Source: an uncultured Sphingobium sp. (GTDB taxonomy: Bacteria; Pseudomonadota; Alphaproteobacteria; Sphingomonadales; Sphingomonadaceae). From it: a DNA stretch of 64,000 bases. Made by a program: the position numbers and the translations under genes. A model generated the notes under the pieces. That model was not told the origin of the DNA. It made no database searches and saw only the letters and a list, made by a program, of their open reading frames with translations. Numbering within the stretch: the first letter of the stretch is position 1; every line of letters begins with the position of its first letter. The stretch is taken from NCBI GenBank assembly GCA_946885845.1, contig CAMPHJ010000007.1, positions 1 through 64,000 of the forward strand, in the 5' to 3' direction. Below are positions 42,325 to 46,064 of the stretch, one piece after another.

Positions 42325-42332
42325 GCGCGTTC
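42325..42332. repeat. Target-site duplication, left copy
   Basis: GCGCGTTC, identical to 45263-45270 on the other side of the transposon. Confidence 0.9.
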
Positions 42333-42353
42333 GGTAGTGGGTCAGTTTGAAAT
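42333..42353 (+). repeat. Left terminal inverted repeat of the transposon
   Basis: 21 bp, the exact reverse complement of 45242-45262. Begins GGTAGTGGGTCAG and ends TTTGAAAT. Homology stops at 42354. Confidence 0.93.
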
Positions 42354-42409
42354 TAGCGCACGAAAATGACAGGGTGGCGATCTAGCCGCCGCAATGCCAT
42401 ATTGATGGC

Positions 42410-42634
42410 ATGACAGAGAAGAAGCCGAAACGCCCGCGCGATCCGAACCAGCTTGCGAAGCTGATGGTGGATATTGCCACGGGCGAAGCTGACCAGTCGG
42501 TGCCGAGTGCCAATGAGAAGCGCGCATCAAAGGCTGGCACTGCTGGCGGACCTGCGCGGGCGAAAGCCCTCACGCCCGCGCAGCGATCAGAGATTGCGAG
42601 CATCGCAGCCGCCGCTCGGTGGAAGAAAAGCTAA
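42410..42634 (+). CDS. Small conserved basic protein, transposon passenger
   Basis: 74 residues, Lys/Arg/Ala-rich. It has the pattern KPKRPRDPNQLAKLMVDIATGE at the start and KALTPAQRSEIASIAAAARWKK at the end. I recall short proteins with the same two motifs in many rhizobia and sphingomonads, usually annotated as hypothetical or nucleic-acid-binding; no function is established. This copy lacks the Gly-rich middle that I remember for the family. It runs toward the 158-residue gene, overlapping its end by 4 bp. Confidence 0.7.
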   Translation: MTEKKPKRPRDPNQLAKLMVDIATGEADQSVPSANEKRASKAGTAGGPARAKALTPAQRSEIASIAAAARWKKS

Positions 42635-43107
42635 GCGGCTTCGTCGTCTTCGTCCGACGCCTTACGCCATTCGATGTCGGGGCCAAAATCAGCCTCAAGC
42701 GTAATGGGTTCCTGATCGGGGTTCGCCGCTGCCCAATGATCAAGATCGAATTGCAGCTGCACGACATCACCAACAACCTGTTCGCGACGCCTGTTTGTCG
42801 AACGCACCATCTGCGAACGAGTAGCGTCGTCGATATCAACCCAATAGAAGAAAGTTTCTTGCCCTTGCTTAATGGGGAGTGAGTGATAGGCGCGATAAGG
42901 GCGGCCAGTTTTACGGTCAGTCCGCATCTCTTCGCGCGCAGCTTGGCTAATCTGCTTGACCAACATCTTCATCGGGTCAGTGGGAGCAGGAAGCTCGACA
43001 CCATTCTTTACGGCGAATTTTGCGATCTCGACTGGATCAAGCTCGGTTTTTCCGGTCTTGACCTTATACAATTTGATCATCTGTTGAAGAGTTTTACTGC
43101 CAGCCAT
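42631..43107 (-). CDS. Unrecognised 158-residue protein, partner of the XRE-ImmA gene
   Basis: I do not recognise the family. The protein is soluble, with no signal or membrane segment. It starts with a helical, basic region (SKTLQQMIKLYKVKTGKTELDPVEIAKFAVKNG), has a central strand-rich part with FFYWVDIDDATRSQMVRSTNRRREQV, and ends in a strongly acidic tail (SDEDDEAA). ATG 43107 is preceded by an AAGG-type site (GGGAAGGCTAAGAAAA read on the minus strand). It is the second gene of an operon with the XRE-ImmA fusion (23 bp gap). It could be a toxin, a regulated target, or a peptidase substrate; none is proven. Confidence 0.75.
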   Translation of the reverse strand: MAGSKTLQQMIKLYKVKTGKTELDPVEIAKFAVKNGVELPAPTDPMKMLVKQISQAAREEMRTDRKTGRPYRAYHSLPIKQGQETFFYWVDIDDATRSQMVRSTNRRREQVVGDVVQLQFDLDHWAAANPDQEPITLEADFGPDIEWRKASDEDDEAA

Positions 43108-43130
43108 TTTTCTTAGCCTTCCCGTTTTGA

Positions 43131-44267
43131 TTAGTCGTCTGTCGGATGAATGTCGCCAAATCCATCCGTTTCCGCGCTGGGAATTACATGCTCCCGGACC
43201 GGTTCCAAATGCTGGCGAAACTTGTGATAGTGGCCTGTGTGACGTTGTAACTGGCCTGCTACCAGCCCTGGGTGAACCTTGATTGTTCGCGCGAAACCAA
43301 TGAGATCGCGTTCCGAAAAATATGGAGCTTTGCGGCGGATAAAAGCTTCCATCATGTTGGCGGGAACGCAAAAATTCGCTGCCGCAAAATCTGCTATAGC
43401 TTCCTGCTGGGCCACGGTCGGCTTTAGATCGACTCTAGCGCCGTGGCCAATATCGATGTCCAGCATAGCTTCACCATCCATGCCGTCGCGGTTTCGCACA
43501 TGCTCAAGCTCGTGCCGCAATACGAACAGGAAATTGTCGATCCGATCAAACCGGATTGTCATACCAATGACGGGCGACTTTTCGTCCAGCCACAGGCAAA
43601 CCCCGTCGATCTTCCCGCCGGGAAGACCTTGAACGATCACAAAGCGAATACCGGCCTCTGCCAATATACGCGGCACCTTCCTCATATTTTCGGCATGGCC
43701 GCGCAGCAAAGATATTTTCTCGATTGCCGCCTCAACCGCTTCTGGTGAGTATCGCCCCACCAACATGCCCTCCGCAATAGACTTTACACGGTAAAGCCAT
43801 ACTAGCTGCGAAGGATTAGCATCGACGCTTGTTAGGGTCTTTTTTGCGGCATGTGGCAGAATTTCGACATCTTCGATCCTATTTACCTTGAAAAACCGAC
43901 AAAGTTCATTCTCGACACTTTCAGTATCTTGGATGCCATCTGCAATGAGCCAGCCGCGCTCGATCATCTTGGAAACAGGAAGGTCTCCGTAAATTGTCGC
44001 CCTGTTCACGCGGCGGACACTAGGACGCTCTTCGATGCGGGCTTTCGCAAGGTCGTATTGATGTTGCAGTTCGAGAAATACATGCGCCTCGACCGCAAAC
44101 ACATCCTCAAGCGCAATGGCCAGCTTTGCGCTCACTTTAGTCTGGCCTGAAATAAGTTTCGAAACGCTCGTTTCCCCCATCTCCAAAATCAAAGCGAGCG
44201 CCCGCTTCGTCCAGCCCCGCTCCTCCAGCAGGCTCTCAATTAATTGTCCTGGTGTTCGGTGTTCCAT
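43131..44267 (-). CDS. XRE-family HTH fused to ImmA/IrrE metallopeptidase
   Basis: 378 residues. N-terminal HTH of the HigA/VapI type at about 5-60 (RTPGQLIESLLEERGWTKRALALILEMGETSVSKLISGQ). A middle helical region (about 65-200) links to a zinc metallopeptidase domain of the ImmA/IrrE (COG2856) type with HEXXH at residues 252-256 (RHELEHVRN) and a downstream EAIADFAAANFCVP, whose Glu and nearby residues fit the third ligand. Members of this class act as repressor-cleaving proteases in ICEBs1 and in the Deinococcus IrrE-DdrO stress switch, or as antitoxins. Here repressor and protease are in one chain. Passenger of the transposon. Confidence 0.87.
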   Translation of the reverse strand: MEHRTPGQLIESLLEERGWTKRALALILEMGETSVSKLISGQTKVSAKLAIALEDVFAVEAHVFLELQHQYDLAKARIEERPSVRRVNRATIYGDLPVSKMIERGWLIADGIQDTESVENELCRFFKVNRIEDVEILPHAAKKTLTSVDANPSQLVWLYRVKSIAEGMLVGRYSPEAVEAAIEKISLLRGHAENMRKVPRILAEAGIRFVIVQGLPGGKIDGVCLWLDEKSPVIGMTIRFDRIDNFLFVLRHELEHVRNRDGMDGEAMLDIDIGHGARVDLKPTVAQQEAIADFAAANFCVPANMMEAFIRRKAPYFSERDLIGFARTIKVHPGLVAGQLQRHTGHYHKFRQHLEPVREHVIPSAETDGFGDIHPTDD

Positions 44268-44315
44268 CTATATCCCCACGATGATAAGGCGCGATATTCC
44301 AACTTGCTCAAAATG

Positions 44316-44327
44316 TCAAACTGACCC
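44316..44327. repeat. Internal partial copy of the terminal repeat
   Basis: TCAAACTGACCC matches 12 consecutive bases inside the right terminal repeat and has the same orientation as the right end. It lies in the 101-bp region between the XRE-ImmA start and the transposase start. Confidence 0.55.
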
Positions 44328-44368
44328 TTATGCTTGACTATGGGCGGAAAGGGCTGTATTGAAAATGC

Positions 44369-45253
44369 ATGAACAAGCTGACCATCGAAGAGCGCGCCCG
44401 CATCCTCCACCTTCTCTGCGAAGGCATGAGCATCCGGGCGATCACGCGACTGACTGGCGCGAGCAAGAACACTGTTGCCAAGCTGCTTATCGACGCCGGT
44501 AAGGCTTGCGCGATCTATCACGACGCCAACGTGCGGAACGTGAAGGCCGCTCGCGTTCAGGTCGATGAAATCTGGTCGTTCACCTATGCCAAGCAGAAGA
44601 ACGTAGCCACCGCGAAGGACGCCCCGGAAGGCGCTGGTGATACATGGACTTGGACCGCGATCGACGCCGATAGCAAGATGATCCTATCCTATCTCGTGGG
44701 CGGTCGGGACAGCGAATATGCCATGTGGTTCATGGATGATCTGGCCTCGCGCCTTGCTAACCGCGTCCAGCTTACCAGTGACGGCCACCGTGCCTATCTG
44801 GAGGCTGTGGAAGGCGCTTTCGGTGCCGATGTCGATTACGCCCAACTCGTGAAGCTGTATGGCAATACGCCGGGTTCGGAAGTCCGCTACAGCCCTGCAG
44901 AATGCACCGGTATCCGCAAGCGCACGGTTGAAGGTCGCCCCGACGCCGATCATGTCAGCACCTCTTATGTGGAGCGCAGCAACCTCACCATGCGTATGCA
45001 CATGCGCCGCTTCACGCGCCTGACCAACGCCTTTTCCAAGAAGGTCGAAAACCACGCTCACGCCGTTGCCCTGCATATGATGTATTACAACTTCGTCCGC
45101 ATTCATAAGACGCTGCGCGTCACCCCGGCGATGGCCGCTGGCGTTTCGGATCGCCTTTGGGATATTGCTGACATCGCCAAGCTGGTGGAAGATGCAGAAG
45201 GCAAGCCCACGAAGCGCGGTCCCTATAAAAAGCAGGGTCAGATTTCAAACTGA
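44369..45253 (+). CDS. IS1-like DDE transposase
   Basis: 294 residues. N-terminal HTH (about 10-45, SIRAITRLTGASKNTVAKLL), then a DDE catalytic core with likely residues Asp66 (VDEIWSF), Asp138 (TSDGHRAY) and Glu202 (YVERSNLTMR). The C-terminal RFTRLTNAFSKKVENHAHAVALHMMYYNFVRIH pattern matches single-frame transposases annotated as IS1 family. Unlike classical IS1 there is no frameshift. The stop codon (45251-45253) lies inside the right terminal repeat, so the gene fits the right end exactly. Confidence 0.88.
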   Translation: MNKLTIEERARILHLLCEGMSIRAITRLTGASKNTVAKLLIDAGKACAIYHDANVRNVKAARVQVDEIWSFTYAKQKNVATAKDAPEGAGDTWTWTAIDADSKMILSYLVGGRDSEYAMWFMDDLASRLANRVQLTSDGHRAYLEAVEGAFGADVDYAQLVKLYGNTPGSEVRYSPAECTGIRKRTVEGRPDADHVSTSYVERSNLTMRMHMRRFTRLTNAFSKKVENHAHAVALHMMYYNFVRIHKTLRVTPAMAAGVSDRLWDIADIAKLVEDAEGKPTKRGPYKKQGQISN

Positions 45254-45262
45254 CCCACTACC
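45242..45262 (-). repeat. Right terminal inverted repeat of the transposon
   Basis: 21 bp, exact reverse complement of 42333-42353. It contains the transposase stop codon. Confidence 0.93.
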
Positions 45263-45270
45263 GCGCGTTC
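45263..45270. repeat. Target-site duplication, right copy
   Basis: GCGCGTTC, identical to 42325-42332. Confidence 0.9.
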
Positions 45271-45975: not shown

Positions 45976-45988
45976 AGCCAGCCATTCA

Positions 45989-46064
45989 CCCGTTCGGGCT
46001 GAGCGTGTCGAAGCCCTCTACTTGTGAAGAGAAGAGCAGCCTTCGACAGGTTTCGGGACGAACG
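45989..46064. repeat. REP-like intergenic palindrome (copy 1)
   Basis: A 76-bp imperfect palindrome. CGTTCGGGCTGAGCGTGTCG on the left pairs with CAGGTTTCGGGACGAACG on the right, and the inner part holds GTCGAAG/CTTCGAC. It shares most of its left half with the copy at 55718-55786. Lies between a lipoprotein gene and argS. Confidence 0.75.

Follow-up and report, generated by a model that had tools for sequence, protein, structure and literature searches.

The window analysed here, a 64,000-nucleotide stretch from an uncultured Sphingobium sp. (contig CAMPHJ010000007.1, positions 1 to 64,000), contains a transposon of 2,930 bp at positions 42333-45262. Its inverted ends are perfect over 21 bp (GGTAGTGGGTCAGTTTGAAAT); the left copy lies on the plus strand at 42333-42353 and the right copy on the minus strand at 45242-45262, where it overlaps the end of the transposase gene. 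When this repeat was searched for with up to three mismatches, two matches were found across the window, which are the element ends, and none in 100 dinucleotide shuffles. As read from the sequence, the element is bracketed by an 8-bp direct repeat, GCGCGTTC, with the left copy of this target-site duplication at 42325-42332 and the right copy at 45263-45270.

The element contains four genes. From left to right, these are h1 (42410-42634, plus strand), encoding a basic protein of 74 amino acids (aa); C (42631-43107, minus strand, 158 aa); B (43131-44267, minus strand, 378 aa); and the transposase gene (44369-45253, plus strand, 294 aa). With an upstream TTG as its start, the C open reading frame (ORF) is given as 246 aa; the ATG at 43107 yields 158 aa. 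B is predicted to join a HigA-type helix-turn-helix (HTH) repressor to an ImmA/IrrE-type metallopeptidase with the motif HELEH, and resembles PD-Lambda-2_B (PADLOC, TIGR02607, Foldseek). Both B and C point away from the transposase, are spaced by 23 bp and probably form one operon; C and h1 overlap at their stop codons. B and the transposase gene are divergent, with about 100 bp between their start codons. Upstream of the transposase gene, the inner portion of the terminal repeat occurs again (44318-44326, minus strand; AAACTGACC in plus-strand letters), followed on the plus strand by TTGACT (44334-44339), the probable -35 of the transposase promoter as read from the sequence, and TATTGA (44358-44363) as its -10.

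For the empty site, 61 genomes were drawn from the genus of locus L013 (Sphingobium phenoxybenzoativorans; loci are numbered with L and cargo classes with K), and the 12 best loci were fetched. The right flank was matched in all 61 genomes, in a few of them weakly. In 12 of 12 fetched loci, the two genes that flank the element in the window stand side by side, the lipoprotein gene directly after ispH, without any match to the element; the 7 loci that lie in the compared orientation can be aligned through the junction and differ slightly in and near the 8-bp target. Perfect ends, the 8-bp duplication and the empty site bear out the claim of an earlier note on this DNA that a complete IS1-like unit moved as one piece, and the ends, the empty site and the family-wide presence described below agree that its passengers are integral to it.

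The transposase scores 32.4 bits against PF03400 (DDE_Tnp_IS1), above the gathering cut-off of 24.1, and 62.1 bits against the NCBIfam IS1 equivalog NF033558, below the cut-off of 100. Because of this second score, we describe the element as IS1-like and not as a standard IS1 member. All 100 aligned family transposases keep D66, D138 and E202, three residues that form the putative catalytic triad. Members of the IS1 family have ends that begin with GGT and target duplications of 8-9 bp. The window element shares the GGT-initial ends, with a duplication of 8 bp, together with the DDE_Tnp_IS1 domain; it differs in falling under the NCBIfam cut-off and in having a transposase of 294 aa in one reading frame, which the earlier note had also described as single-frame.

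To place the element among its relatives, transposase loci were collected from four sources: a genome collection (277 relatives, the best 80 retained), viral contigs (16), plasmids (23 records, 5 of them opened for the transposase) and an even draw of 385 alphaproteobacterial genomes (matches in 50, 33 loci fetched). A database search scored at least 8,000 transposase homologues. The pool comprised 135 loci including the window. Of these, 108 passed the ends test and 27 did not, being degraded copies, lying at contig ends or yielding no ends; a manual check then discarded 7 that were duplicated, were broken or had false ends (L035, L036, L037, L184, L208, L101 and L103). The resulting 101 complete, non-redundant elements come from the genome scan (64), the even draw (23), viral contigs (9), plasmids (4) and the window, and measure 1,947-4,224 bp with a median of 3,198 bp. 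Target duplications have at least 8 matching bases in 86 elements and 7 bases in 6, and 9 have none. The named loci belong mostly to Alphaproteobacteria; a few drafts are otherwise named, such as L044 (Anaerolineales) and L072 (Nitrosopumilus), and such outliers could be binning errors.

All 101 complete elements carry a further ORF of at least 110 aa that is clear of the transposase and h1 (an ORF alone does not prove a gene), and in 89 of them the cargo belongs to a class shared with another element or has a named domain, leaving 12 with neither. The same ends therefore do not always flank the transposase alone. Nor is there practically any probability left for the idea that the passengers landed by chance in one ordinary insertion sequence (IS) copy, in favour of which nothing was found and which is refuted by these counts and by the 37 elements that carry B and C together. 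Because all 101 elements have a further ORF and 99 have h1, we regard transposase and h1 as a core around interchangeable cargo. At the level of sequence, the comparison establishes a fixed core, comprising the IS1-like DDE transposase, terminal repeats with 8-bp duplications and h1 nearly always at the left end, which encloses this cargo; by its genes and ends, the window element is one member of a compact family of cargo transposons found mainly in Alphaproteobacteria. The earlier note had counted three passenger genes. The ORFs of 74, 378 and 158 aa are indeed present, and B and C stand as passengers, whereas the 74-aa gene belongs to the core.

Within the taxonomic family of L013, 41 of 397 genomes contain the end sequence within 2 mismatches; most close pairs among those listed lie 2-4 kb apart, one lies 1.6 kb apart, and no listed pair in these 397 genomes is about 1.1 kb apart, as a bare IS would be. 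One locus, L096, may be a cargo-free element: it spans 1,651 bp, its ends match at 18 of 22 positions without a duplication, it failed the ends test and it holds little besides h1 and the transposase. Separately, one 2,047-bp element, whose cargo type is unassigned, occurs at four contig ends of Tsuneonella rigui (L034-L037), which probably reflects recent multiplication, its true copy number being unsure.

The core gene h1 was traced with a profile grown from the 74-aa protein of the window. The profile matches 99 of 101 complete elements, being absent from L066 and L214, and in L212 the match lies solely inside a 380-aa ORF. Short copies run in the direction of the transposase in 96 of 98 cases. 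Among the 385 alphaproteobacterial genomes, 38 contain h1, accompanied by a transposase match in 33 of them (4.9 expected), and 28 of 35 longer transposase matches have h1 within 4 kb. The consensus reads roughly KRPRD...ATGE...GGxARAxxLTPExRxEIAxxAAxARW, and a homologue is annotated as 'histone H1' in M. loti and Novosphingobium. An h1-like stretch, corresponding to the end of this consensus, also occurs inside large cargo proteins of L045, L050, L069, L079, L093, L201 and L212, as if it were a shared tag; two of these proteins were typed, as RhuM (L045) and P63C (L201). Our guess is that h1 serves as a DNA-bending or transposition helper. Two sister elements, L193 and L199, have h1 inverted and a long, unclassified cargo.

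Cargo was typed by scanning representatives only, and the types found record presence, not enrichment over background. They comprise Fic/SoFic with PemK (L066), RhuM/PDC-S05 (L045, an incomplete element), P63C (L201), Bro-N/PDC-S13 (L051), HipA (L080), AAA HEC-04 (L044), nSTAND-like (L057), SocA/Panacea (L092), RmrT (L048), RmrA (L081, incomplete), NYN (L020), Abi_2/PD-T4-5 (L097), DUF3800/PDC-M04A (L091), PDC-M06B (L194), HARE-HTH (L023), a ClpP-like SDH protease (L003) and a ParA-like protein (L086), in addition to XRE-IrrE genes. The cargo of K1, K2, K5, K15, K16, L193, L199, L207 and others gave no match or no informative match in these scans. In many representatives, the sister cargo thus appears to be toxin-antitoxin (TA)-like or defence-like.

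Transporter IS (tIS) are described as IS derivatives with passenger genes (PMC9330008, PMC7986276), and the window element, with passenger genes between the terminal repeats of an IS-type element, is best filed among such cargo-carrying IS elements. It shares with tIS, as these sources present them, the IS-type transposase, terminal repeats, target duplication and internal passengers; the present family differs in having further ORFs in every complete element, a fixed second core gene and cargo that is repeatedly exchanged and, in many representatives, TA- or defence-like. A second parallel is offered by Tn3-family transposons, for which exchangeable TA modules beside the transposition genes are described and shared regulatory DNA is proposed (PMC7157771). 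This family is in contrast IS1-like, 2-4 kb in size and equipped with a fixed h1, its cargo extends beyond TA pairs, and, unlike in Tn3-family transposons, no resolvase was found among the representatives scanned.

The part of the analysis on cargo movement, whose heading carries INDEPENDENTLY, compares the descent of transposase and cargo. Among the elements compared, the transposase nearest to that of the window belongs to L013 (94% identity), whose B is just 39% identical; the nearest B belongs to L026 (75%), where the transposase identity is 80%. L200 and L201, from one genome, have sister transposases (support 100) and different cargo: that of L200 falls into class K8, whose representative L057 is AAA/nSTAND-like, and that of L201 is of P63C type. 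On the B tree (39 rows, 2 of them outside transposons), the presence of HigB, the toxin of the HigBA pair, requires 1 change, compared to a mean of 12.6 and a minimum of 8 in 500 label shuffles. On the transposase tree, which was built quickly and leaves 39 of its 97 inner branches open, it requires 12 changes against a shuffled mean of 12.3. The trees exclude L076, whose transposase is split over two ORFs. Because of the difference in changes, the HigB-less form is, on these two trees, an old variant that has been kept and travels from transposon to transposon. With cargo classes of L023, L046 and L058 (the HARE-HTH cluster) and of L092 assigned by hand, B and C versus other cargo require 19 changes on the transposase tree, compared to a mean of 30.4 and a minimum of 24 after shuffling, so that cargo follows the transposase loosely. 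Taken together, the comparisons show separate reconstructed histories for cargo and transposase. The cargo would be swapped when elements recombine homologously through the arms they share, h1 and the transposase.

The putative promoter box upstream of the transposase recurs across the family. Within -70 to +4, the 9-mer is exact in 36 of 101 elements, where the remaining element sequence predicts 0.02 matches, and present with at most one mismatch in 55 (2.5 expected). Of 37 exact matches, 23 lie at -51 on the minus strand; TTGAC is found within -45 to -20 in 81 of 101 elements. The box occurs in 53 of 63 elements with GGTCA-type ends and in 2 of 38 with other ends. A copy of the inner end repeat in the transposase promoter suggests self-regulation: the transposase would bind both its own ends and this promoter copy, and once bound there could limit its own expression and also affect the divergent cargo operon.

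The same arrangement can be read differently, with B and C switching the transposon itself: B would repress the divergent transposase promoter and its protease would relieve this on DNA damage, resulting in stress-induced jumping. The short interval between the two divergent start codons, a similar operon-start distance in most HigB-carrying elements, and the resemblance of the B fold to repressor-protease stress switches are consistent with this, yet 11 of the 36 elements with an exact box belong to K and single cargo classes. Because the box is also present with other cargo, we assign it to the core and not to B. With no separate conserved operator reaching significance, and with the module absent from 64 of 101 elements, we consider a transposition switch unlikely.

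B matches the PADLOC profile PD-Lambda-2_B (PDLC03982) over residues 6-360 with an E-value of 8.4e-37, and its HigA antitoxin domain scores above the TIGR02607 cut-off. The M78 profile PF06114 gives no match to the window B at E ≤ 1 and an E-value of 0.034 for the relative in L040; an HExxH motif is nevertheless present in 48 of 48 B-type proteins. With the structure model of B, Foldseek matched CapP, HigA, PprI with single-stranded DNA (ssDNA) and IrrE. The fusion of HTH and metallopeptidase proposed in the earlier note hence holds for HELEH, the HigA-type HTH and a partial structural match, and not for the Pfam M78 model. Its partner of unknown type is a tight neighbour of B, present in 37 of 101 elements and accompanied by B in all 37, and can now be placed, since the gene occupies the C position of PD-lambda-2. 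By homology and gene order, the window cargo is a PD-lambda-2-like pair of B and C without HigB, for which the HigB profile found no match in the window element and matches in 21 of the 101 elements.

PD-lambda-2 has been tested as a defence system of which PD-Lambda-2_B is a component; in that account B alone was toxic, A (HigB) relieved the toxicity, and the third gene (C) is related to a P4 phage antitoxin (PMC9519451). The window module shares with the system described there a HigA-peptidase fusion followed by a third gene, and 21 sister elements also have HigB, whereas HigB is missing from the window element and from 15 others that carry B and C, and the window C has no PADLOC match. CapP and PprI are reported to be activated by ssDNA (PMC10904395, PMC13373217). 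CapH/CapP and PprI/DdrO, as described in these sources, likewise combine an HTH repressor with an IrrE-type protease, suggesting an ssDNA trigger for B as well; in the window B, both domains lie in one chain and the HTH is HigA-type.

Compared to HigBA, the module shares the HigA antitoxin domain and lacks the toxin gene. This bears on the proposal that B and C are an addiction system, which would stabilise the element because its loss would poison the cell. The homology of B to the HigA family antitoxin, HigB in 21 sister elements, PemK and HipA types among other cargo and, in the literature, TA pairs integral to Tn3 transposons (PMC7157771) all point in this direction. Addiction in the classical sense is nonetheless weakened, since this element and 15 sisters that have B and C lack HigB, and several elements show one cargo gene alone with no visible antidote; we rate this reading slightly below the already unlikely transposition switch. 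The missing toxin gene could alternatively mark a decaying, functionless remnant of a TA locus. HExxH is however retained in 16 of 16 HigB-less PD-lambda-2-type proteins, which group together on the B tree and are open frames with 40-76% identity to the window B, and C never occurs without B in the complete elements, making decay highly improbable. Among the functions that the earlier note had offered, host protection fits best, given the match to PD-Lambda-2_B, with the protective role itself deduced by analogy.

We therefore favour, with moderate confidence, a family of cargo transposons with swapped cargo and a self-regulating transposase, in which the window module of B and C acts in ssDNA-triggered phage defence without HigB. 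The cargo would then function as an ssDNA-sensing defence switch. More specifically, B would be a repressor-protease that keeps itself and C in check; ssDNA from phage replication or DNA damage would activate its protease, as in CapP and PprI; and the active protease would release a growth-arresting response requiring C, in the window variant without HigB. The element would shield host cells from phage and thereby be retained.

Several observations weigh against this view. The structural matches of B to CapP (E 5.6e-4) and to PprI and IrrE (E 2.3e-3 to 4.4e-3) are weak and partial, with TMq values of 0.22-0.27; the VIA rows chiefly probe residues 3-92. The window C has no match in Pfam, PADLOC or PHROG, the C of the E. 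coli system not being among the comparisons, and its confident structure model has no clear fold match among known structures. HigB, present in the tested PD-lambda-2, is missing from the window and the 15 sister elements; because B alone was toxic there and A relieved it (PMC9519451), the module needs another brake. Support for the HigB-less branch of the B tree is moderate (84/76). The agreement between box and repeat type does not reach significance when relatedness is taken into account (about 2 to 1 among 3 usable pairs), and among separate HigA-type operators none is significant, with 3 of 37 at 5% or less. Cargo of K1, K2, K16 and L193 is unclassified, and 14 of 47 h1 matches in the 385 genomes have no transposase match within 4 kb.

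A bolder reading, which we advance tentatively, treats the family as an undescribed class of transposons in which transposase and h1 are a universal chassis for immune and toxin modules and the promoter box ties cargo expression to the transposase level. Here, the HigB-free pair of B and C would be a new immune switch, a one-chain repressor and ssDNA-activated protease, with C possibly a new fold and either the effector or its guide.

Many known phage defences reside on large islands, prophages and plasmids. If these small elements regularly carry one or two exchangeable modules of TA- or defence-like type, they would provide a simple route between bacteria for such genes. The family would then also serve as a genomic trap, making any ORF between h1 and the transposase a candidate, and the HigB-less lineage would be a natural experiment on what HigB does in PD-lambda-2.

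The family ends also delimit smaller units. Seven fetched end pairs are miniature elements without transposase, one of 92 bp (L152, 454-545) and six of 111-114 bp (L146-L151), the latter all fetched from one 2.9-Mb genome with 62 end matches (30 forward, 32 reverse). At L153 (654-2368), a 1.7-kb unit bounded by the ends has no transposase match and contains a 396-aa ORF that by eye resembles a secreted aspartyl protease. In the flank of the window element, a dispersed short repeat at 45976-46050 has many scattered matches in the genus genomes.

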